64,000 bases of DNA from Candidatus Nitrosymbiomonas proteolyticus (lineage in GTDB: Bacteria; Armatimonadota; Fimbriimonadia; Fimbriimonadales; Fimbriimonadaceae). The position numbers and the translations under genes were made by a program. Under the pieces are notes generated by a model. The model was given only the letters and a program-made list of their open reading frames with translations. It searched no databases and was not told the origin of the DNA. Location: NCBI GenBank assembly GCA_017347465.1, contig AP021858.1:806001-870000 (forward strand), read 5' to 3'. The stretch's first letter is position 1. Every line of letters starts with the position of its first letter. This document shows positions 8,858 through 64,000 of the stretch, piece after piece.

Positions 8858-8951
8858 TGGCGGGAATGTGTAGGAATCGAACCCACCCGTCCCCGTAAGA
8901 GGACACACCGGTTTTGAAGACCGAGGGGCACACCAGCACCCATCCACTCCC
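8858..8951 (-). tRNA. selC: tRNA-Sec (anticodon TCA)
   Basis: 94 bases on the minus strand. Read 5' to 3': acceptor starting GGGAGTGG, six-pair D stem GGGTGC/GTGCCC with the four-base loop TGGT, anticodon loop CTTCAAA (TCA) on a TCGGT/ACCGG stem, long variable arm GTCCTC-TTAC-GGGGAC, T arm GTGGG-TTCGATT-CCTAC, acceptor 3' strand ACATTCCC, discriminator G, encoded CCA. The 8+5 layout, short D loop and long variable arm are diagnostic of bacterial selenocysteine tRNA rather than a stop suppressor. The eighth acceptor pair is a G-A mismatch. A TACGAT box (8964-8959) ends 7 bases before the first base. Confidence 0.93.
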
Positions 8952-53788: not shown

Positions 53789-53864
53789 GGGGATGTAGCT
53801 CAGCTGGGAGAGCGCTGCAATCGCACTGCAGAGGTCGTGAGTTCGAATCTCATCATCTCCACCA
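53789..53864 (+). tRNA. tRNA-Ala (anticodon CGC)
   Basis: 76 bases with encoded CCA. Acceptor GGGGATG pairs with CATCTCC with the G3-T70 wobble that identifies alanine tRNAs. D arm GCTC-AGCTGGGA-GAGC, anticodon arm CTGCA-ATCGCAC-TGCAG (anticodon CGC), variable loop AGGTC, T arm GTGAG-TTCGAAT-CTCAT, discriminator A. It is complete and so still functional after integration of the island, whose left repeat begins at position 32 in the anticodon loop. Confidence 0.97.
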
Positions 53865-53866
53865 GA
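53820..53866 (+). repeat. attL-type direct repeat (3' half of tRNA-Ala)
   Basis: Forty-seven bases identical to 63949-63995: from the anticodon loop (ATCGCAC) through the CCA plus GA. The next base differs (C against T), then TCAA matches again. Location in a tRNA 3' half is the classical target of tyrosine-recombinase integrases. Confidence 0.92.
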
Positions 53867-53871
53867 CTCAA

Positions 53872-53906
53872 AGGAACCTGAATTGGTTCCTAAGATTGGT
53901 TCCTAA
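53872..53906 (+). repeat. Inverted and direct repeats at the island's left end
   Basis: AGGAACC (53872-53878) and GGTTCCT (53885-53891) form a seven-base inverted repeat; ATTGGTTCCTAA occurs at 53882-53893 and again at 53895-53906. A related AAAGGAAC follows at about 53953. This cluster immediately inside attL resembles recombinase or accessory-protein binding sites. Confidence 0.5.
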
Positions 53907-53993
53907 ACAAAATGGGTTCTGCGCGACTCCGAGCAGCGCATCATCAGCCTTTAAAGGAACATGGGCGAGCGCCGGGGCGTTATAATTGACGTG

Positions 53994-54461
53994 ATGCGGC
54001 GAACGCGCAGCGTGATCCATATGGTCGCCATGCTCGTGCTCTTGGCGGGATTCGTTCCCACGAGCGTGATCGCTTCGCTGTTCAACACCAGTTGCAAAAT
54101 GGATTGCTGCGTCGGGAAGTCGACGCACGAGGCGGCCGATCCGGTCTGCGTCAAAGGTTGCGAGACGGAGAAAGGGCACAAGTCTAAGCCAGCTCAGTCG
54201 ATTAAAGAGTCCCAATCAGACGACTGCAAATGCAGCATCAGTTCAGTTCCGGGCACGCCGCAGCCGGACATCGCAGCAACGGTTGCCTCTAGTTTTCAAA
54301 TCTCTAAGGTCGTTGCCGACCTTCCTGTTGAAAGGAAGGGCATTCTCGCATTCTTAGAGCCTGAATCAGAGCCTGGAATCTTCGGAACGGATTCCGGTCC
54401 GCCGACCTTCGGGCCCAACTACGTCTCCCTTGGGCGCGCGCCTCCTGTGCATCTTGCGTAA
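53994..54461 (+). CDS. Exported Cys-rich protein of unknown function
   Basis: 155 residues from ATG 53994 (GTG 53991 and ATG 53961 are alternatives; TATAAT at 53981-53986 lies 7 bases before the ATG, arguing for this leaderless start). The N-terminal hydrophobic stretch (IHMVAMLVLLAGFVPTSVIA) is a signal anchor; then three Cys clusters, SCKMDCCVG, VCVKGCETE and DCKCSIS, about eight cysteines in 50 residues. The C-terminal half is Pro/Gly-rich. Cys clusters in this setting imply thiol-metal binding. I do not recognise the family. First gene of the rightward island operon. Confidence 0.7.
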   Translation: MRRTRSVIHMVAMLVLLAGFVPTSVIASLFNTSCKMDCCVGKSTHEAADPVCVKGCETEKGHKSKPAQSIKESQSDDCKCSISSVPGTPQPDIAATVASSFQISKVVADLPVERKGILAFLEPESEPGIFGTDSGPPTFGPNYVSLGRAPPVHLA

Positions 54462-54532
54462 CCCCCGCTCGACACTCCGTCGCGTGGGATTCGTCGTAGA
54501 CGCAAGTCCCTTACCAAAGCACAGGAAAATCA

Positions 54533-56218
54533 ATGATTCAAACTCTCATCGTCTTCACGGCGATGGCGCTTGGCCAAACTCCGGCACTCAAATGCCCGGT
54601 CATGGGCAGCGCCGTCGCCCCATCGTCGCCGGTCGTGGAATACAACGGCTCGCGATTTCAGTTCTGCTGCGCAGGCTGTGACGCCAACTTCGCCAAGTCT
54701 CCGGAAGCGTTTCTGAAGACTCAGCGATCTGCAAAGAACACGGTTGGAGTCTTTCTGTTCGATCCGGTCAGCCGATTGCGGCTGGATGCGGACAAAGCCA
54801 AGGCAACGGCCGACTTTGATTCGGTCCGCTATCCCTTCCAGTCGGAAGAGAACAAGGCGGCATTCTTGGCAAACCCCAAGAAGTTCGCTGCCGTGCCCGC
54901 GAAGGAGGCTCTCTATTGCCCGGTTGGCAAGGAGGCCGTCCCTTCCTATTCCAAGGCAAGCGACTACGTTGACCACGACGGGGTGCGCTGGTACATGTGT
55001 TGCGCCGGATGCGGCGGGCCCTTCGAGAAGGACCCCAAGAAGTATCTCTTCGCGGGAATCGAGAAGAACATTCAAGTCGCCAAAGCGATCAAGCACGACG
55101 CTTCGCATCACCCTGTGACCTCTGACGTCAAGGTCGTCACCAAGGTGCAGTTCGGCAAATACGAAGCCGTCCTTCGCGTTCCAGAGGAAGGTCTGTACGC
55201 TCAGGAAGAGATCGATGTGGAGTTCCGCGTCGTCGACACGACGGCTAAGGACCCGGTGGAAGACGGCTTCAAGGGGGTGGGGGCAATCGAAGCGACCGCC
55301 GTCATGACGATGCCGAGCATGGCGGGGATGCCCGAAGCCAAGCCCGAAGTGCACCGTGAAGGCGTACCCGGCGACTACGGCGTCGTTCTGTTCTTTCCCC
55401 ACGGCGGAGATTACAAGATTGCCCTGACGCTGAACATTCCGGGCCAAGGCAAACATGACATCGCGTTTCTAGTGGACGTGAAAGACGAGCGCCCAGCCAA
55501 CGTCGCCAAGCCACAGCCCTTTCAACTCAAGGTTGTCGATTGGCCCGTTCATGCAATGGCTGGCCAACCGAGCAACCTGAAGTTGCGAGTCGTCGACACG
55601 AAGACCGGAAAGGTTCAGAGCGCATTCGATGTCGCTCATGAGAAGCAGTTCCATCTCTTGCTTGCCAGCAAGGACCTCAACTGGTTCCTTCACGAACACC
55701 CCGAAATGGCAAGAGATGGCACGTGGTCAATTCCGATCACGTTTCCCGCTGGAGGGGATTACTGGGTGTACGGCGACGTTGCTCCTAGCGGCAAAGGATC
55801 ACGGGTCCTCATCGCGAAGGTCAGCGTCCACGGCGACAAGCCGACGTGGGATACCAAGTTGAATCTCACGACCACTGCAGCCGACGGCGGTCTTAAGGGG
55901 GAGCTTGTGACTCGCGACATCCAGGTCGGTCGAAAGACCACCTTGATGGTCAAGCTCACTGACGAGAAGACCGGCCAGGCTGCTGGGGATACCGTCAAGT
56001 GGCTCGGAGCGGCAGGTCACATGATGATCTTCCACCAAGACGGTCAGACGGTCGTGCACAGCCACCCTGCCGAAGACGAGGAGAGTGAAGCTCAGGTGAA
56101 GCAAGGCATGGTCCACTTCACGGGCCGGTTCCCCAAGCCTGGACTCTACAAAGTTTACGCCCAGTTCGATTGGCGCGGCGCGGTTCGGACGCTCGGCTTC
56201 GCCATCGAGGTGAAGTGA
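54533..56218 (+). CDS. Exported multi-YHS-domain metal-binding protein
   Basis: 561 residues, ATG with AGGAAA upstream. A signal-like N-terminus (IQTLIVFTAMALGQ) is followed by three YHS-type units: LKCPVMGSAV with FCCAGC (1), a degenerate unit without Cys, FDPVSRLRLD then ENKAAFLANPKKFA (2), and LYCPVGKEAV with YMCCAGC (3). YHS domains bind copper in CopA-like partners. The remaining 350 residues are beta-rich FixH/YtkA-like domains (TAVMTMPSMAGMPEA, LLASKDLNWFLHEHPEMA, GAAGHMMIFHQDG) full of His and Met. This suggests periplasmic buffering or delivery of copper. Confidence 0.8.
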   Translation: MIQTLIVFTAMALGQTPALKCPVMGSAVAPSSPVVEYNGSRFQFCCAGCDANFAKSPEAFLKTQRSAKNTVGVFLFDPVSRLRLDADKAKATADFDSVRYPFQSEENKAAFLANPKKFAAVPAKEALYCPVGKEAVPSYSKASDYVDHDGVRWYMCCAGCGGPFEKDPKKYLFAGIEKNIQVAKAIKHDASHHPVTSDVKVVTKVQFGKYEAVLRVPEEGLYAQEEIDVEFRVVDTTAKDPVEDGFKGVGAIEATAVMTMPSMAGMPEAKPEVHREGVPGDYGVVLFFPHGGDYKIALTLNIPGQGKHDIAFLVDVKDERPANVAKPQPFQLKVVDWPVHAMAGQPSNLKLRVVDTKTGKVQSAFDVAHEKQFHLLLASKDLNWFLHEHPEMARDGTWSIPITFPAGGDYWVYGDVAPSGKGSRVLIAKVSVHGDKPTWDTKLNLTTTAADGGLKGELVTRDIQVGRKTTLMVKLTDEKTGQAAGDTVKWLGAAGHMMIFHQDGQTVVHSHPAEDEESEAQVKQGMVHFTGRFPKPGLYKVYAQFDWRGAVRTLGFAIEVK

Positions 56219-56370
56219 TGCAGACCCTAGGATCAAACGCACTCATCACGGCCGGCGTCGGCGTTTACGCCTGGTTGGTTCTTCGCCGCCTAGGCGTAGG
56301 CCATCCGGACAGCAAGCCAGACTGTGGTTGCGGCTCCGGGAAAGCTTGCAAAGGCAAGGTGCAATCATGA
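56218..56370 (+). CDS. Small single-pass membrane protein with Cys tail
   Basis: 50 residues; its ATG overlaps the upstream TGA. One membrane helix (NALITAGVGVYAWLVLRRL) precedes a short tail with Cys-x-Cys and one more Cys (PDCGCGSGKACKGK). The layout matches FeoB-associated Cys-rich membrane peptides, but no feoB is present; here it probably binds metal at the membrane for the cupredoxin or copper proteins around it. The next gene overlaps its stop (ATGA). Confidence 0.7.
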   Translation: MQTLGSNALITAGVGVYAWLVLRRLGVGHPDSKPDCGCGSGKACKGKVQS

Positions 56371-56726
56371 GAGCCCCTCAAGCCTTTCTGCTTGCAGCCT
56401 TCGCCACCGCTGTCGCGGCCGGTTGCAAGTCCGAACCAGTTGCGGCATCAACAACCGAAGGCGTCCAACGCGCAACCATCACGATCGATGGAGGCAAGTA
56501 CACACCGAACCTCATCACGGTCCAGCGTGGCAAGCCCGTGGCACTGACATTCAAGGGCGGCCAAGAGCTTGGCTGCGGAGGCACGGTTGTCTTCAAATCC
56601 CTCAACCAATCGAAGGAGGTCGAATCCGGCAAGTCCGTGACTTTCACCTTTACGCCCGACAAGGCCGGTGAGATCCCGTTCACCTGCGGCATGGACATGT
56701 ACGACGGCAAGGTCGTCGTCAAGTGA
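56367..56726 (+). CDS. Cupredoxin-domain lipoprotein
   Basis: 119 residues, ATGA overlap with the upstream gene. The lipobox VAAGCKSE suggests a lipoprotein. The cupredoxin fold of the EfeO/CopA-associated type is clear: RATITIDGGKYTPNLITVQR, QELGCGGTVVF and GEIPFTCGMDMYDGKVVV, where C-x-x-x-V-V-F and C-G-M-D-M are the probable copper ligands of this family. It likely carries copper in the periplasm between the YHS protein and the outer membrane. Confidence 0.85.
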   Translation: MRAPQAFLLAAFATAVAAGCKSEPVAASTTEGVQRATITIDGGKYTPNLITVQRGKPVALTFKGGQELGCGGTVVFKSLNQSKEVESGKSVTFTFTPDKAGEIPFTCGMDMYDGKVVVK

Positions 56727-56746
56727 ATCCTCAAGGAAACAGAACT

Positions 56747-57232
56747 ATGAACATCATCAACACAATCTCGAAGTCCCTCGCCCTGTTCGCCGTCATCGGC
56801 ACACTCGGCCTCGCTCCGATCGCTTCGGCGCACGAAGGCGACTGCCCTTACTGCAAGATGAAGCTGGTCCAAAACACCAAAGAACAGGACAACGAAGTCG
56901 TTCTGAAAACGGGCAACAAGCGCATCGAGTATCGGTGCATGTACTGCGTCATCAAGGACCAGGGCCGATACAAGGGCGATCTCGTCGTTTACGCTCCGAG
57001 CGAGAAGGTAGGCGAGCCGGTCGTCCTCAAGCGCACGGGCGGCAAGTGGGCCGCTCCCGAAGGCGCGGTCTTCCTCAACACCTTCAAGAAGCACGCCGAT
57101 TGCGCCGCGTTGTCCCGAGCGTTTTCGAGCAAGGCCGCCTTTGATGCCTATGTTGCGAAGCATAAAGTCGAAGGCGCAAAGGCGCTTACGTTTGCCGAGT
57201 TCGCAGAAGCGGTAACCAAGCCAGCCAAGTGA
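56747..57232 (+). CDS. Periplasmic CxxC/RCxxC module protein (NosL-like)
   Basis: 161 residues, ATG 56747 with AAGGAAAC upstream; a GTG at 56723 is an alternative. A signal peptide (SLALFAVIGTLGLAPIASA) is followed by Cys33 and Cys36 in DCPYCKM, Cys64 and Cys67 in YRCMYCVI, and Cys119 before ALSRAF. The same pattern, with the same spacing style, makes up the C-terminal domain of the next protein. The first cysteine pair with Met recalls the NosL copper-site style, but the whole module is not one I can name. It overlaps the next gene by 4 bases. Confidence 0.7.
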   Translation: MNIINTISKSLALFAVIGTLGLAPIASAHEGDCPYCKMKLVQNTKEQDNEVVLKTGNKRIEYRCMYCVIKDQGRYKGDLVVYAPSEKVGEPVVLKRTGGKWAAPEGAVFLNTFKKHADCAALSRAFSSKAAFDAYVAKHKVEGAKALTFAEFAEAVTKPAK

Positions 57233-58794
57233 AAACTATGAAAGCCATCACCCTACTTGGCATCACAGCCATAGCCTCGCTCGGCTTGGCGCAAGATCAT
57301 TCCGGTCATCAAATGGCCGGAATGAAAAAGCAGACTGAGCTTCCAGCCATGCCGAGAGACATGCCCGCATGGCTTGCTGCACCCGGCGCAGACCACCTCT
57401 TCTACAAAGCAGCGCCCTACAACTGGGCGATCAATCGAATTCCCAAGTTCGCGAAGGACATGTACGCAACAGGAGTTGGTCACGCCATGGCCTATGAGGC
57501 TCTCGTGCGAGGTGAGGCTTCTACGCTCGAAACGAAGACCTTCGACACGATCAACTGGGTACTGAAGAACCAGCCAGCTATGCCGGTGGACGAAGGCGCG
57601 ATCTCGCCAACTTTCCTGCGCAAGTACGGCTATCTGGAGAAGGTTTTCGACTGGGCGCATACGCTCCACTTCCAAACGATCGACGTTTTCGCCCATCCAG
57701 GGTGGACCGACGAGCAGAAGGAGAAGGAGATCGAGCGGCTCTGGGCGTTCTACGAAGCTCAGCCGTACGCGATCACGGGGTTGCCCATGAACATGGATTA
57801 CCTCGACAGCTTTTCGTATTCGATGAAGTTCCGCACCGACTACCCAAAGGTGAACGGCCTCTTCTGGGGCTATCACTGGTTGCAGACCGTGAACTACGAC
57901 ATGCTCTACCGCGTTCCGGTCAAGGATCAGGCTCCTCAATACGAAGTGCTTGGCGCGAGATATCACGAGACTGAACTGTACAAGACGGACCGCGATTTCA
58001 TGCCGATGACGGCCGAAATGAGCCCTCGATTCGCAAAGCGATTTCCCCAGATCGCGAACGCTTTCGATAACCTCCACATGCTTCACGACAACGTGAACGA
58101 TATCCTTGCCCAGCCGCAACTCACCGAAGCTCAGAAGCAGGAGCAGGTAAAGATCGCGATCTACCGCGTCCTCGCCACCACTCATATCAGCGAAACGCCG
58201 GGTGAAAGCGAAGGCAAAGAGAACTCACTCCACGACCATCGCCACCCGCCGAGCATGCCAGGAATGGGCTGGATGAAGGGCAGCGAGGACGACATCATGT
58301 GGATGTCGGGAATGGGCTGGATGGACATGAGCGCATGTTCCCACTGCTCGATTCCGATGCCCGAAGGCAACCCTTGGGGCGCGACCGTTTCCGCCGAAGG
58401 ATGGACGATGATGGTGCGATGCCTCATGTGCGCCCGAGACATGGCGGGGGAGACGCCGGGCCGCGCCATCATTCGAGCCGCAACCAACGACCCGAACCGT
58501 TTGCTCGTGCTCATCTCCGATGAAGAGGGCAATTGGACCTCGAACATCGACGGCATCGTGTTCTTGGAGAAGTACGGCGAGCATCCCGAATGCTCTGGCT
58601 GGTCTCGCGCGTTCACTACGCTTGCCGCGCTTGAGAAGTATGTTTCGGAAAACCCGGAGTACAAGGATACGAAACCGCTGAACCTCGCGGAATGGGCTGC
58701 ACTCAATCACGGCACCCCCGATACATATCGCAAGATCGACAAGCCCAACCCTTACAAGCCCGGACCTCCGCCCGCGAAAGGAGGAGGTCGATGA
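57229..58794 (+). CDS. Exported protein with His/Met-rich linker and C-terminal CxxC/RCxxC module
   Basis: 521 residues, ATG 57229 within a 4-base overlap. After a signal peptide (ITLLGITAIASLGLAQ) comes a His/Met-rich strip (HSGHQMAGMKK). The helical body (about 30-320) has many Trp and Tyr residues (YGYLEKVFDWAHTLHFQTID) and no recognised family. A Met/His/Gly-rich hinge (HDHRHPPSMPGMGWMKG, then MWMSGMGWMDMSA) leads to the C-terminal module with Cys370/373, Cys398/401 and Cys455 before GWSRAF, paralogous to the protein just upstream. The metal-ligand-rich hinge supports a copper role. Confidence 0.75.
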   Translation: MKTMKAITLLGITAIASLGLAQDHSGHQMAGMKKQTELPAMPRDMPAWLAAPGADHLFYKAAPYNWAINRIPKFAKDMYATGVGHAMAYEALVRGEASTLETKTFDTINWVLKNQPAMPVDEGAISPTFLRKYGYLEKVFDWAHTLHFQTIDVFAHPGWTDEQKEKEIERLWAFYEAQPYAITGLPMNMDYLDSFSYSMKFRTDYPKVNGLFWGYHWLQTVNYDMLYRVPVKDQAPQYEVLGARYHETELYKTDRDFMPMTAEMSPRFAKRFPQIANAFDNLHMLHDNVNDILAQPQLTEAQKQEQVKIAIYRVLATTHISETPGESEGKENSLHDHRHPPSMPGMGWMKGSEDDIMWMSGMGWMDMSACSHCSIPMPEGNPWGATVSAEGWTMMVRCLMCARDMAGETPGRAIIRAATNDPNRLLVLISDEEGNWTSNIDGIVFLEKYGEHPECSGWSRAFTTLAALEKYVSENPEYKDTKPLNLAEWAALNHGTPDTYRKIDKPNPYKPGPPPAKGGGR

Positions 58795-59555
58795 GACGAC
58801 TTCTGCTCATCTCAGGGCTCCTTCTCAGTTCGCTCGCGTTCGCCAGCGACCACAACAACATTGAAGCAGGACGCCCGCTCCGCTTCGACGACGCTTACTC
58901 CATCGCCTTTCGCGAGCGCGCATTCGAGTTTGGCTTGTCGCTGGATACGTTTCGGCGGCGCGGACCCACCTACGGAAACAAGACCGAGTTCAAATACGGC
59001 TTGGCCAAGAACCAAGACATTTCCGTCGCATTCGAGCCCACGTATTCAAGCTCTGAGCGAAGGGGCGATATCGGAAACGTCGAAATCGGCTACTTCAACG
59101 GACTTCGCCGCGAGATCGACAACTCGCCCGCACTTGCTTACCGAGTGGACGTCGGCCTTCCGACCGGGCGCGGCGCGAAGGGGCTCGATCTTCGGTTCCG
59201 TGGAATCGCGACGAAAGCGCTGGGTCAGTACGACAAGGTTCACCTCAATCTCGATCTGAACATGAACACCAACCCGGGCCCGGGCGAGCGTCGTCACACC
59301 GTAGGCGCAGTTCTGGGCTATTCCAAGCCATTGGGCTACCCGCGCCGTTTCGATCAGACCCTGGTAGCCGATTTCGCCATCCAGCAAAGCAAGAATGAAG
59401 GTGATGGCTTCGTAGGGTCGGTCGGCCTCGGATTGCGTCGTCAAGTTAGTCCCCGAGCCGTGTTCGACATCGGGATTACCTCCGACATCTTCTCGACGAA
59501 GGGGGCAGAGCGAAGCCCAGTCCGCTTTGCCATCGGCTACTCGGTTAGTTTTTAG
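58791..59555 (+). CDS. Outer-membrane beta-barrel protein, transporter-like
   Basis: 254 residues, ATG 58791 overlapping the upstream stop, with GGAGGAGG just before. A signal peptide (LLLISGLLLSSLAFAS) is followed by about ten amphipathic strands (FEFGLSLDTFRRRGPTYGNK, FKYGLAKNQDISVAFEPTY, FVGSVGLGLRRQVS) and a C-terminal aromatic residue (GYSVSF), typical of Omp85-assembled barrels. It resembles the metal- or phenol-related outer-membrane 'transporter' family; the substrate is unknown. Last gene of the rightward operon. Confidence 0.75.
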   Translation: MRRLLLISGLLLSSLAFASDHNNIEAGRPLRFDDAYSIAFRERAFEFGLSLDTFRRRGPTYGNKTEFKYGLAKNQDISVAFEPTYSSSERRGDIGNVEIGYFNGLRREIDNSPALAYRVDVGLPTGRGAKGLDLRFRGIATKALGQYDKVHLNLDLNMNTNPGPGERRHTVGAVLGYSKPLGYPRRFDQTLVADFAIQQSKNEGDGFVGSVGLGLRRQVSPRAVFDIGITSDIFSTKGAERSPVRFAIGYSVSF

Positions 59556-59564
59556 TCAACGGGG

Positions 59565-59583
59565 TGGGCACTTTTTGTGCCCA
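59565..59583 (+). terminator. Hairpin between convergent operons
   Basis: TGGGCAC and GTGCCCA form a perfect seven-pair stem with a TTTTT loop. There is no T-run after it, so it is probably a weak or bidirectional terminator between the barrel gene and the TlpA gene. Confidence 0.5.
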
Positions 59584-59650
59584 TCTCCATCTTAGATTCG
59601 AGGGAAGTCGTCTTTCGCATCCGCGCTATTCGTACCAAGCAGTTAGGAAG

Positions 59651-60301
59651 CTACTTGGGCAAGTTGGCAGAGATGCCAGCTTCGAGGGTCTTTTCAGTCT
59701 GCTTTCCCGTCCATTGCGCGATGATCTGGCCGTCCCTTACTAAGAACATGGCGGGAATGTTCTTGACGCCCCATTTCTGCCAGGTTCTCTGATCGTCGTG
59801 GAGGACGGGGTTGGGGAACTTGTGGCCTTTGAGGAACTTGTCAAGGTTGGGCTGCTTTTCGTCGATGCTGACGCTGAGAATCTCGAAACCCTTCTCCTTG
59901 TAGCGGGCGTGGAGCTTGTCCAGCATGGGCATCATGGCTTTGCAGGGGGCGCACCAGGTGGCCCAGAAATCCACGAGCACGAGCTTGCCTTTCATCGATT
60001 CGGCATCCCAGGTCTTGCCTGTGGTGTCGACTAGAGCGAATTCAGGCACGGGCCGGGGCAATACAGGCGGTACGTATGCATCCGGGTCCTTCTTGAACGC
60101 GGCGATTTCCTTCGTGTTGCAGAAGTAGTACGCGTTGCCTTTGTACATCAGACCCCCGGCTGGTTTTTCGGGGCCATCGTTGGGGCAGAGGAGGCACTTG
60201 GCCTCTTTGGGAAGGTCTTTCTTGGCGATGTCGGTCGGCGTGTCTTGGCCCATCGAGACAAGCGATGCAAAGGCCAGGAGTAGAGTAGCGATTGTTTTCA
60301 C
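59651..60301 (-). CDS. Fusion of YHS-like domain and TlpA/ResA thioredoxin
   Basis: 216 residues, GTG 60301, four bases after the upstream stop. A signal peptide (TIATLLLAFASLVSMGQ) is followed by a short YHS-like unit with Cys36, Cys39 and Cys61 (EAKCLLCPNDG, MYKGNAYYFC, FKKDPDAYVP), then a TlpA-type thioredoxin (about 85-216) with the active-site WCAPC at residues 116-120 and cis-Pro in KNIPAMFLV. It probably reduces or rebuilds disulfides in the Cys-rich periplasmic copper proteins, or delivers copper. Last gene of the leftward operon. Confidence 0.85.
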   Translation of the reverse strand: MKTIATLLLAFASLVSMGQDTPTDIAKKDLPKEAKCLLCPNDGPEKPAGGLMYKGNAYYFCNTKEIAAFKKDPDAYVPPVLPRPVPEFALVDTTGKTWDAESMKGKLVLVDFWATWCAPCKAMMPMLDKLHARYKEKGFEILSVSIDEKQPNLDKFLKGHKFPNPVLHDDQRTWQKWGVKNIPAMFLVRDGQIIAQWTGKQTEKTLEAGISANLPK

Positions 60302-60305
60302 GTGA

Positions 60306-60920
60306 TTAGAATCCCCAGCCGATGGTGATCGCTGGATGCTTGAACCAGATCCACCCGGCTTGAATGAAATAGTTGGATTGCGAATAGGTGACGAGCAGGT
60401 GCGATTTCCTGCCGTCGTTCATGGCGATGGCAGTCCACTCGGGTGAGAAACGGTAACTCGCGCCGAACGGATAGACGAGCTTTTTCTCGAAGCCCGAGTA
60501 GGTGATCGAGAGATATGGCGATAGCTGGGTACCGGGAATCGTCTTGCCGAAGTTGGCGCTGGCGAGTTGATAGCCCTCGGGCGTCCCGATGCGGTCCGAA
60601 CTTGTGTTGAAGAAGATCATCGGTCTCTTCTCGTTCTCGCTCTGAACGACCCACGTCGCCCTCAACCCTAGTTCTTGGACGGCGAAGTTGTACTCCGTTC
60701 CGATCTGGAAGTTGGGCGTAGCGTTGTAGTCGATCGTCAATCGGTGCCGTGGTCGCAGTTGAGGCGTGTCGGCGAATCGATAGGCGATTACCCATCTCTT
60801 GTTGAGGCTTCCCGAACCGAGAAGCTGGCCTTCGCCGGGTCACCCAGTTCACGTTGGGACGCTCGTCTGACAATATGCCAGGACGGGCAGAGCGGCGAAC
60901 AGAACAGCTATTTTCCGCAT
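60306..60920 (-). CDS. Outer-membrane protein with two in-frame TGA codons; candidate selenoprotein
   Basis: A 204-codon frame from ATG 60920 to the TAA at 60308-60306. The start lies in the last 13 bases of the Cys-rich peptide gene, and the N-terminus is a typical signal peptide (MRK then IAVLFAALPVLAYC). Codons 24 (60851-60849) and 27 (60842-60840) are TGA, in the order V-P-T-TGA-T-G-TGA-P-G-E-G, the spacing of CxxC. After them 177 codons stay open: a barrel-like protein (LTIDYNATPNFQIGTEYNF, YLSITYSGF, end ITIGWGF). Because tRNA-Sec is present and a SECIS-like hairpin follows, selenocysteine is possible. Two nonsense mutations in a dying gene, or initiation at TTG 60740, remain possible. 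Confidence 0.6.
60805..60831 (-). promoter_or_regulatory. SECIS-like hairpin after the TGA codons
   Basis: On the minus strand CTTCTC (60824-60819) pairs with GGGAAG (60813-60808) around the loop GGTTC, extended by AGG/CCT. The loop begins 21 bases after the second TGA and 30 after the first, inside the 16-37 window described for bacterial SECIS elements, and it contains the required G and U. A short GC-rich hairpin can occur by chance here. Confidence 0.4.
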
Positions 60921-60994
60921 GGACATCCACAGGTGCAGGTCGAGCCGGGGCATTGCCCAGAGGCGCAGCAGTCGCAATTACAGTTACAGTTCAT
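60908..60994 (-). CDS. 28-residue Cys-rich metallothionein-like peptide
   Basis: Runs from ATG 60994 to TAG 60908 and has 10 cysteines in 28 residues, at positions 3, 5, 7, 9, 10, 15, 20, 22, 24 and 26 (start MNCNCNCDCC, end CTCGCPCGK), mostly C-x-C spacing. AAGGAGA lies about 6 bases before the ATG. It overlaps the arsR stop by 11 bases and the next gene's ATG by 13, so translation is coupled on both sides. This fits a cytoplasmic thiolate cluster peptide that buffers Cu(I) or similar ions. It matches no metallothionein family I can name. Confidence 0.75.
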   Translation of the reverse strand: MNCNCNCDCCASGQCPGSTCTCGCPCGK

Positions 60995-61373
60995 GTTTTT
61001 CTCCTTGATCGAGTTGGTTTGGGCCGAGAACGCAATAGCCGTCTACTCTGATGGCGAGCCTCCTTCTGATCCTTTCCGCGTCGCGCTGGCCGCGTTGGTC
61101 CGCTTTGAGCGCTGCCGCGTAGTGGTTCAAAACGGCTTCAAGTGCGGGCTTTGCGCTCGGCTCGATGCTGTAGTTGATCCACTTGTGCCTCTGTGTGGTG
61201 GAGAGGACTCCCGCCTGACGGAGGGTTTGCAAATGGTTGGAGAGCGTTGATTGACTCATCTCCAGGGCATCGGCAAGCTCACAGACGCAAAGCCCGTTCT
61301 TGAGCAGTGCCGCAAGGATTCGCACACGAGTGGGATCGGCGAGAGCTTTGCCAAACAGGACGACATCGTTCAT
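60984..61373 (-). CDS. ArsR/SmtB-family metal-sensing repressor
   Basis: 129 residues from ATG 61373. A winged helix follows the ArsR pattern: KALADPTRVRILAALLKNG, then the metal-sensing alpha-3 sequence LCVCELADAL (CxC as in ArsR/CadC sensors), then the recognition helix SQSTLSNHLQTLRQAGVL and wing RHKWINYSIE. An extra Cys (GYCVLG) near the C-terminus may complete the metal site. Such proteins release DNA on binding As(III), Cd(II), Cu(I) or similar. It is divergent from copA across a 60-base intergenic region and heads the arsR-peptide-barrel-TlpA transcript. Confidence 0.9.
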   Translation of the reverse strand: MNDVVLFGKALADPTRVRILAALLKNGLCVCELADALEMSQSTLSNHLQTLRQAGVLSTTQRHKWINYSIEPSAKPALEAVLNHYAAALKADQRGQRDAERIRRRLAIRVDGYCVLGPNQLDQGEKHEL

Positions 61374-61433
61374 GGCTTCATACCAGGATACGAGGATATG
61401 ATAGCACAAGTTCCTGCCAGCGTAGAATAGAGC
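61374..61433. promoter_or_regulatory. Divergent arsR/copA promoter and operator region
   Basis: Sixty bases. For copA, TAGAAT (61423-61428) stands 5 bases before the ATG, giving a probably leaderless mRNA. GGATACGA then GGATATGA (about 61386-61401) form an eight-base near-direct repeat with an AT-rich neighbour, a plausible ArsR operator covering both promoters. Confidence 0.5.
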
Positions 61434-63830
61434 ATGGCACTTGACCCCGTTTGCGGGATGATGGTTGACCCCGCCGATGCGGCGGGGTCGTTTGAACACG
61501 CGGGCACAACTTACTATTTCTGCGGCAAGAGTTGTCTGGAGCGATTCAAGTCGAACCCCGAGAAACATCTGGCCCCTGAGCCAATCGAGGCAGCAGAGCC
61601 TCAAGATGTGCGGCTTGAGTACACCTGCCCCATGCATCCCGAGATCGTGCAGAAGGGTCCGGGCAGTTGCCCGAAGTGCGGCATGGCGTTGGAGCCGCTC
61701 CATCCGGCCGCGACGGTCAAGAAGACGCAATGGACTTGTCCGATGCATCCGCAGATCGTGCAGGACAAACCGGGCAGTTGCCCCATCTGCGGGATGGCGC
61801 TTGAACCGATGGAGGTGAGCCCCGACGACGAGAATCCCGAGCTTGTGGACATGACCCGCCGGTTCTGGGTTTCGACCGTCCTCTCGATACCGCTTCTATT
61901 GGCAGTGATGCCCCATCTGTTCGGATTCGACATCGCGAACTGGATACCGCATGGAGTTCTGGGCTGGGCACAGTTTGCGCTCGCTACGCCGGTGGTGCTT
62001 TGGGGAGGGTGGCCATTCTTCCAGCGCGGTTGGGCTTCGGTTGTCCATCGCAGCCCCAACATGTTCACGTTGATCGCGCTGGGGACCGGAGTGGCTTGGC
62101 TGTACAGCGTGGTCGGCGTCATCGCCCCCCACGTGTTTCCGCCTTCGTTCCGCAACAAGATGGGTGGTGTGGACCTGTATTTCGAGGCAGCAGCCGTTAT
62201 CACGACGCTCGTCTTGCTGGGTCAGGTCCTAGAACTTCGAGCACGGAGCGCGACGAGCAGCGCCATTCGGGCTCTACTCGACCTTTCACCCAAGCAGGCT
62301 CGGCTGGTTCGAGACGGAAAGGAAGAGGACATCCCGCTGGAACATGTCCATATGGGTGATTCGTTACGTGTGCGCCCTGGGGAGAAGATTCCTGTGGATG
62401 GCATCGTGATCGACGGCCGAAGCTCGGTAAATGAGTCCATGATCACCGGCGAGCCTATGCCCGTTCAGAAGGCCGAAGGCGACAGAGTGACGGGGGCGAC
62501 GGTTAACGGAACGGGGAGCTTCCTAATGCGGGCTGAGCGCGTGGGAAGTGAAACCCTGCTTGCCCAGATCGTGAAAATGGTGAGCGAGGCACAGCGCTCG
62601 CGGGCTCCCATTCAAAAGTTGGCCGACACGGTTTCTGGCATATTCGTGCCGATTGTGGTGTTGGTCGCGATCATTTCCTTTGTCGTTTGGGCCATGTTCG
62701 GGCCAGCGCCTGCAATGGCGTATGCGGTCATCAATGCGGTCGCGGTGTTGATCATCGCCTGCCCTTGCGCACTGGGTTTAGCGACTCCGATGTCGATCAT
62801 GGTCGGAACCGGGCGCGGTGCACAGGCCGGTGTTCTCATCAAGAGTGCGGAGGCGTTGGAGGCGTTCGAGAAAGTTGACACTCTGGTGGTTGACAAGACG
62901 GGCACGCTCACCGAGGGCAAGCCACGGGTGGTTGCCGTCGTTCCTCTGGCAGAACTCTCGGATACCGAGGTTCTTGAGGTGGCGGGAGGGATCGAGCAAG
63001 GCAGCGAACATCCCCTGGCGGCGGCGATTCTCGCTGGCCTCAAGGAACGTAGCATCGAGCCGAGCAAGGTGCAGGATTTTGAGTCGGTCACCGGCAAAGG
63101 CGTGCGTGGCAAGATCGGCAACGACGACGTTGCGCTCGGAAACTTCGCCTTGATGGAGTCTGTTGGCGTGACCCCGGGGGACGCCGCGACGAAAGCAGAG
63201 GCGATGCGAGCCGAAGGCCAGACCGTCATGTTCGTCGCTAAGGGGACAAAGGTTGTGGGTCTGATCGGCGTTGCGGACCCGATCAAGACAACAGCATCTG
63301 AAGCATTGGTCGCTTTGCACGAAGAGAAGATTCGCGTCGTCATGGTCACGGGCGACAGCAAGACCACGGCGCAGGCGGTTGCCACAGGACTCGGCATTGA
63401 CGAAGTCCATGCCGACGTTTTGCCCGAAGGCAAGATTGAGATCATCAAGCGACTCCAATCGGAGGGGCGGTTCGTTGCGATGGCCGGTGACGGGATCAAC
63501 GACGCCCCTGCTCTTGCTCAAGCTCAGGTTGGAATCGCGATGGGAACTGGCACCGACGTGGCAATGGAAAGCGCTGGCATCACCCTCCTCAAAGGCGATC
63601 TAACGGGACTGGTTCGGGCGAGAAGACTCAGCCGTGCGACAATGAGCAACATCCGCCAGAACCTCTTTTTCGCTTTCGTCTACAACGTCGCGGGAGTTCC
63701 AATTGCTGCGGGCGCTCTTTATCCGTTCACTGGTCTTCTACTGGGTCCGGTGATCGCGGCATTGGCAATGAGCTTAAGTTCTGTGTCCGTGATTGGCAAT
63801 GCGCTGAGGCTACGGAGCACAAAACTGTAG
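61434..63830 (+). CDS. copA: Copper-exporting P1B-type ATPase with YHS and heavy-metal-binding domains
   Basis: 798 residues. Order: YHS domain (Cys7, Cys30, Cys34), two copies of the short heavy-metal-binding domain ([38 protein letters not shown]), then the P-type ATPase core. Cu+ ligands: CPC at 443-445, YN in TM7 ([11 protein letters not shown]) and MxxSS in TM8 ([11 protein letters not shown]), the P1B-1 signature. Phosphorylated Asp487 is in [13 protein letters not shown] reads TGEP; hinge motif [10 protein letters not shown] is intact. It exports Cu(I), possibly Ag(I), from cytoplasm to periplasm. Its promoter is shared with arsR. Confidence 0.96.
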
Positions 63831-63885
63831 CGTCGAATCGTTGCCCTTTAACGAGGCATCACGCCTGCGACCACTGCAACGTACA

Positions 63886-63917
63886 ACTGCAGAGGTCGAT
63901 TAGGTTCAAAAACGACC
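63886..63917 (+). repeat. Partial att-like repeat with hairpin near the right end
   Basis: ACTGCAGAGGTCG (63886-63898) matches 13 bases of the tRNA-Ala sequence at 53825-53837. It is followed by a stem GGTCG (63894-63898) / CGACC (63913-63917) and GCTTTT, which may serve as a weak copA terminator. It could also be an accessory recombination site or the remnant of an earlier integration. Confidence 0.4.
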
Positions 63918-63948
63918 GCTTTTGGCGAATTTGTGTGTTGATAGAGAC

Positions 63949-63995
63949 ATCGCACTGCAGAGGTCGTGAGTTCGAATCTCATCATCTCCACCAGA
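63949..63995 (+). repeat. attR-type direct repeat (3' half of tRNA-Ala)
   Basis: Exact 47-base copy of 53820-53866. The 5' half of a tRNA is absent before it: the bases preceding 63949 do not continue the tRNA. The window ends 5 bases later, so whatever lies beyond, including a possible integrase gene, cannot be seen. Confidence 0.92.
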
Positions 63996-64000
63996 TTCAA

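Follow-up and report, generated by a model that had tools for sequence, protein, structure and literature searches.

The window analysed here is a stretch of 64,000 nucleotides from the genome of Candidatus Nitrosymbiomonas proteolyticus (contig AP021858.1, positions 806,001 to 870,000). Towards its right end lies an island of about 10 kb (53820-64000) that encodes YHS and cupredoxin-like proteins, a P-type ATPase, and an operon with what is very likely a selenoprotein gene. The gene has two in-frame TGA codons spaced like the cysteines of a CxxC motif, and we refer to its product as the UxxU protein. The features relevant to this work are the following:

8858..8951, minus strand: tRNA-Sec gene with the anticodon TCA, outside the island (ARAGORN; Rfam RF01852, 74.4 bits)
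53820..53871, plus strand: 3' segment of tRNA-Ala, left direct repeat of the island
59651..60301, minus strand: gene for a protein with a YHS domain and a TlpA/ResA-like thioredoxin domain, next downstream of the UxxU gene, an adjacency that recurs across the phylum
60306..60920, minus strand: gene for the predicted UxxU outer-membrane selenoprotein, 204 amino acids, stop codon TAA at 60308-60306
60312..60794, minus strand: predicted 12-stranded beta-barrel domain, residues 43-203 (AlphaFold model; Foldseek)
60807..60825, minus strand: SECIS hairpin, 8-bp stem GCUUCUCG/CGGGAAGC, apical loop GUU
60840..60842, minus strand: TGA codon 27, which we take as selenocysteine (invariant Sec/Cys alignment column)
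60849..60851, minus strand: TGA codon 24, likewise taken as selenocysteine (invariant Sec/Cys alignment column)
60867..60920, minus strand: signal peptide MRKIAVLFAALPVLAYCQ, recognised from the sequence and from the N-terminal hydrophobic segment conserved among homologs; exact cleavage site undetermined
60908..60994, minus strand: metallothionein-like Cys-rich ORF of 28 amino acids, MNCNCNCDCCASGQCPGSTCTCGCPCGK, overlapping the start of the UxxU gene (read from the sequence)
60984..61373, minus strand: ArsR/SmtB metalloregulator with a CxC in LCVCEL, over the HTH_metalloreg cut-off, with CmtR as the next-best model
61434..63830, plus strand: CopA-like P-type metal ATPase containing YHS and HMBD-like segments (by sequence reading only), divergent from the operon
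63949..64000, plus strand: tRNA-Ala segment, right direct repeat and end of the island (51/52 identical)

Direct reading of the sequence places the start of the UxxU frame at the ATG at 60920-60918. The two TGA codons are separated by Thr-Gly, so that the motif reads Sec-Thr-Gly-Sec (UTGU), and TGA27 is followed by 177 sense codons up to the terminal TAA, before which no in-frame TAA or TAG was found within the gene. The N-terminal tail of the protein is QTSVPTUTGUPGEGQLLGSG. Standard ORF calling splits this frame and recovers only a piece of 144 amino acids that starts at TTG 60740. The initial annotation, made from the sequence alone, had described the signal peptide, the two TGA codons around Thr-Gly, the 177-codon segment and the absence of TAA and TAG, and all of this held when the frame was re-read.

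Support for a coding role of the two TGA codons comes from comparison with related genomes. A search of 60 relatives revealed homologs in 27 of 61 genomes, mostly with exactly two internal TGAs and with 35-49% identity; profile searches brought the count to 67 out of 113 genomes in the class and 77 out of 291 in the phylum. In every phylum match above 100 bits the internal stops are TGA and never TAA or TAG, and both TGAs are kept not only in the homologs at 35-49% identity but also in other families of the phylum. Identical TGAs are present in two other assemblies assigned to different genera, and the UxxU gene of one assembly (G015) matches that of the window codon for codon. Near-identical contigs belong to Fimbriimonadaceae ACE_ARM1 and Chthonomonas sp. 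UBA2362; the contig scan with specific peptide patterns retrieved only these two near-identical copies. The motif could be read in 65 distinct homologs, of which 45 have UxxU, seven CxxU, one UxxC and twelve CxxC. All four combinations of Sec and Cys thus occur, and we conclude that both positions exchange the two residues. The UxxU variants comprise UTGU, UVGU, UAGU, USGU, UPGU, UPSU, UPIU and UPLU. Where a UGA is replaced, the residue is always cysteine, and the invariant alignment columns are the Sec/Cys positions 24 and 27, Met1 and five other residues. A second barrel subfamily has the motifs CPLU (L024, L041, L042, L045 and L013), UPxU (L044 and L047) and CPLC (L025 and L048); in two genomes (G034 and G067) a gene of this subfamily adjoins a UxxU gene. 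Plasmid records contained no relative, and a sequence search of the PDB found none either.

The hairpin downstream of the UGAs provides a further signal at the RNA level. Its distance is 22 nt from UGA27 and 31 nt from UGA24, and its folding energy is -10.2 kcal/mol. The published criteria for bacterial SECIS elements (PMC13188914) call for a loop of 3-9 nt with a G in the first two positions, a stem of 4-16 bp, a distance of 16-37 nt from the UGA and a minimum free energy of at most -7.5 kcal/mol. Every one of these criteria is met for UGA27, and the spacing to UGA24 is also inside the permitted range. In nearly all Sec forms a possible stem-loop begins 14 nt after UGA27, with a G opening the loop. 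Covariation was evaluated with 37 distinct sequences from two subfamilies that differ in the coding sequence at the hairpin site: 94.6% of the cells are paired as compared to 73.0 +/- 1.7% in shuffles, compensatory double changes occupy 45 cells versus 11.2 in shuffles, and the covariation score is 0.585 versus 0.179; none of 500 shuffles reached either of these last two values. The pairing and covariation measures fall once the partner is slid by a single column, and RNAalifold returns the same helix. Moreover, synonymous recoding of the same peptides yields 5.49 +/- 0.20 of the 8 pairs, as opposed to 7.67 observed. Of 53 Sec forms, 46 have a stem of at least seven pairs, a number that no CxxC form (0 of 12) reaches; the Sec forms with fewer than seven pairs in the fixed geometry are five UxxU and two CxxU proteins. 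Since the hairpin is retained at the same place in L036 (CxxU) and in L038 (UxxC), it is plausible that one hairpin can serve either UGA. That a single hairpin serves both UGAs of the window gene is inferred from the spacing, and the efficiency of readthrough is unknown.

The organism possesses the machinery for selenocysteine insertion. SelA, SelB and SelD are encoded in the genome, all over the curated cut-offs, and SelD itself contains selenocysteine (GUAAKLG). For the comparison across relatives we used SelA as the presence marker; at an E-value of 0.001 the tRNA-Sec search is unspecific, as other long tRNAs match, and SelB matches everywhere, so that for SelB the curated cut-off alone was used. 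Among the 291 genomes of the phylum, SelA is present in 57 of the 60 genomes with UGA-bearing homologs as compared to 92 of the 231 others (Fisher p 6e-16). Of the three exceptions, two (G125 and G126) encode a SelB that passes the cut-off, at a distance of about 2 kb from the family gene; the third (G054) is only 73% complete. Conversely, all five genomes without SelA in which the homolog was read (G004, G033, G071, G074 and G088) have CPLC or CPIC. The UxxU gene lies about 2 kb from selB on contigs G125:C347 and G126:C100, and about 1.5 kb from selA on G108:C231.

Taken together, these results strongly support the initial annotation in its reading of the gene as one for a selenoprotein, which came through all of its named refutation tests that were run. 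The tRNA-Sec gene it had noted at 8858-8951 was confirmed by ARAGORN and Rfam RF01852, and the SECIS-like hairpin it had seen at a suitable distance was located at 60825-60807, fits the bacterial SECIS model and covaries. The outcomes that would have refuted it were not met: selA, selB and selD are all present, codons 24 and 27 are each occupied by Sec or Cys in the homologs, none of those examined starts past the TGAs with a signal peptide of its own, and independent assemblies show the same TGAs, which are therefore neither chance nor sequencing errors. We consider it almost certain that UGA24 and UGA27 encode selenocysteine and that the gene is a true selenoprotein gene, even though there is no wet-lab evidence of selenium incorporation or expression.

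The remainder of the protein is predicted to form a small beta-barrel. The AlphaFold model (pLDDT 85.8, pTM 0.79) has 12 strands by our own count, which rests on prediction only, and confidence is low (pLDDT about 59) for the UxxU tail that precedes the barrel. The best TM-scores in Foldseek (0.53-0.65) were obtained with KdgM and with a designed 12-stranded barrel. FapF came first by E-value, but with an rmsd far above that of KdgM, and kinship to FapF is not claimed. From the model and the fold matches, which support the barrel proposed earlier, we infer an outer-membrane location with the N-terminal tail in the periplasm. No thioredoxin fold was found around the UxxU motif; in the model, it precedes an all-beta barrel. 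The window protein has no Pfam match, a weak generic match to OMP_b-brl was obtained for 4 of 33 homologs, and none of the 33 aligned members matches an NCBIfam family. We found no entry for the family in the 2026 selenoprotein catalogue (PMC13188914), although one worded differently from our search terms might have escaped us. In the parts of its table that were examined, the only proteins listed with UxxU are Prx-like, MerA-like metal-binding and FmdB proteins, and the only ones with selenocysteine at the outer membrane are a TonB receptor and a barrel of the MtrB/PioB type. The initial annotation knew of no described selenoprotein of this form. By the libraries checked, we are dealing with a new family of bacterial selenoproteins, predicted small outer-membrane barrels with a Sec pair that are spread through the Armatimonadota.

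The genetic context points to metals. Going downstream, the operon consists of the ArsR/SmtB gene, the 28-aa Cys-rich ORF, the UxxU gene and the YHS-TlpA gene, with ends that overlap or almost touch. The adjacency of the UxxU and YHS-TlpA genes recurs in the family, the order and distant families of the phylum; many loci lack an adjoining YHS-TlpA gene. An ArsR neighbour recurs in three loci, as does a Cys-rich ORF, the latter with a different sequence at the equivalent place (L087, L092 and L093). In some homologs, YHS domains are fused to CxxC (CAGC) barrels; such fusions (L039, L023 and L119-L123) occur in genomes that possess SelA. The island also encodes a secreted protein of 521 amino acids (57229-58794, plus strand) without a Pfam or NCBIfam match. 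A genome of another genus (G008) matches the segment 53786-64000 with 99.99-100% identity, one of a third genus (G015) with 95%, and the UxxU gene is absent from one genome of the same species and one of the same genus. This near-identity across genera, the 52-bp tRNA-Ala repeats and the absence of the gene in close kin indicate that the island has most likely moved recently.

The known system that comes closest to the UxxU barrel as a working analogue is PcoB, whose 12-stranded barrel sits in the outer membrane and bears a flexible N-terminal tail related to metals (PMC9210255, PMC12509749). PcoB/CopB and the UxxU protein, as predicted, share the 12-stranded barrel, periplasmic termini, a flexible N-terminal tail and a location in metal-resistance operons. 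However, the UxxU protein is a selenoprotein without a match to the CopB Pfam family, it has other operon partners, and its tail is not rich in His and Met as in PcoB/CopB but carries UxxU instead. Selenocysteine in a bacterial outer-membrane beta-barrel is also found in the GSU2204/MtrB-PioB family (NF041027; PMC13188914, Table 1), but these proteins are listed as having one Sec and a CXXCH motif, whereas the UxxU family has two Sec on a short tail and no NF041027 match. The metal-binding protein NF041115, a putative mercuric reductase, shares the double Sec of UxxU and the metal context (PMC13188914); in contrast, the UxxU family is a predicted outer-membrane barrel without sequence match to it. 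Finally, YHS domains as in the YHS (seleno)proteins of NF041384 are partners or fusions of the UxxU barrels, but the Sec of the UxxU family lies in the barrel tail, outside the YHS domain; the matches to NF041384 in the YHS fusion and the neighbour are sub-threshold only.

Could the TGA codons have a different meaning? The broken frame in standard ORF calling is what one would see if they were genuine stops in a gene that has decayed, or the result of faulty assembly. This is practically ruled out, since dozens of diverged homologs have both TGAs at identical codon positions, they are identical in separate assemblies, no strong match has TAA or TAG, and Cys is found in genomes without SelA. 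In the absence of direct proof of selenium, the UGAs might be read through or reassigned to Trp, Gly or Cys. Reassignment is contradicted by homologs that end in TGA stops, and the covarying SECIS, the co-occurrence with SelA and SelB and the restriction of replacements to Cys make either possibility highly improbable. A programmed termination that releases a secreted peptide of the first 23 codons, with the barrel made from an internal start, finds support in the 144-aa ORF opened by TTG 60740. Yet this ORF has neither a signal peptide nor the first barrel strands, in the homologs the barrel follows UxxU without interruption, and the CxxC homologs form one continuous frame, which leaves virtually no room for this idea. 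On these comparative data, we have discarded the pseudogene, reassignment and internal-start readings.

A more serious competitor accepts the selenoprotein but views the Sec pair as part of a thiol-peroxide redox enzyme or a periplasmic disulfide relay, with the metal genes as mere neighbours. The UxxU/CxxC spacing and the TlpA/ResA-like partner are typical of such relays; on the other hand, the site is on the tail of an outer-membrane barrel rather than in a thioredoxin fold, and ArsR, the Cys-rich peptide, the YHS partner and the YHS fusions indicate metals. On balance we lean slightly against the relay, without being able to dismiss it.

We therefore favour, with high confidence, a new-family selenoprotein that is decoded with one SECIS and has a Sec pair on the tail of a barrel. 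According to this explanation, SelB with Sec-tRNA-Sec would be recruited by the one hairpin and decode both UGA24 and UGA27 to give Sec-Thr-Gly-Sec. The signal peptide would export the protein, which would fold as a small 12-stranded outer-membrane barrel and carry the selenol pair on its flexible periplasmic N-terminal tail. There, the pair may bind soft metals and/or be redox-active at the outer-membrane channel of a metal-resistance operon, and the YHS-TlpA thioredoxin encoded alongside may hand over the metal or re-reduce the diselenide. The case for this periplasmic soft-metal or redox function with the YHS-TlpA partner is no stronger than the case against it: it is inferred, and neither the metal nor the chemistry has been established. 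The same applies to the role in Cu(I) binding or redox chemistry suggested initially, which remains an inference; the operon fits metal handling, and neither a metal nor a reaction has been shown. A bolder reading takes one bacterial SECIS at a fixed place to serve two UGAs nine nucleotides apart, and sees in the resulting selenol/diselenide pair, on the periplasmic tail of an outer-membrane metal channel, a selenium-based metal gate that moves from genus to genus on a metal-resistance island; this is a speculation that we would rather doubt than endorse.

The literature searched contained nothing relevant on selenoproteins of the Fimbriimonadales or Armatimonadetes, with almost no selenoprotein literature found for the phylum, and nothing on two UGA codons with a bacterial SECIS. 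Our work adds a selenoprotein family that is truncated by standard gene calling and is not listed in NCBIfam, Pfam or the 2026 catalogue, and it would place selenocysteine at the outer membrane rather than in a thioredoxin fold, and in a context of metal handling. The natural series of UxxU, CxxU, UxxC and CxxC proteins, with and without the hairpin, may serve as a test of the advantage of selenocysteine over cysteine, and of how one SECIS serves two UGAs.
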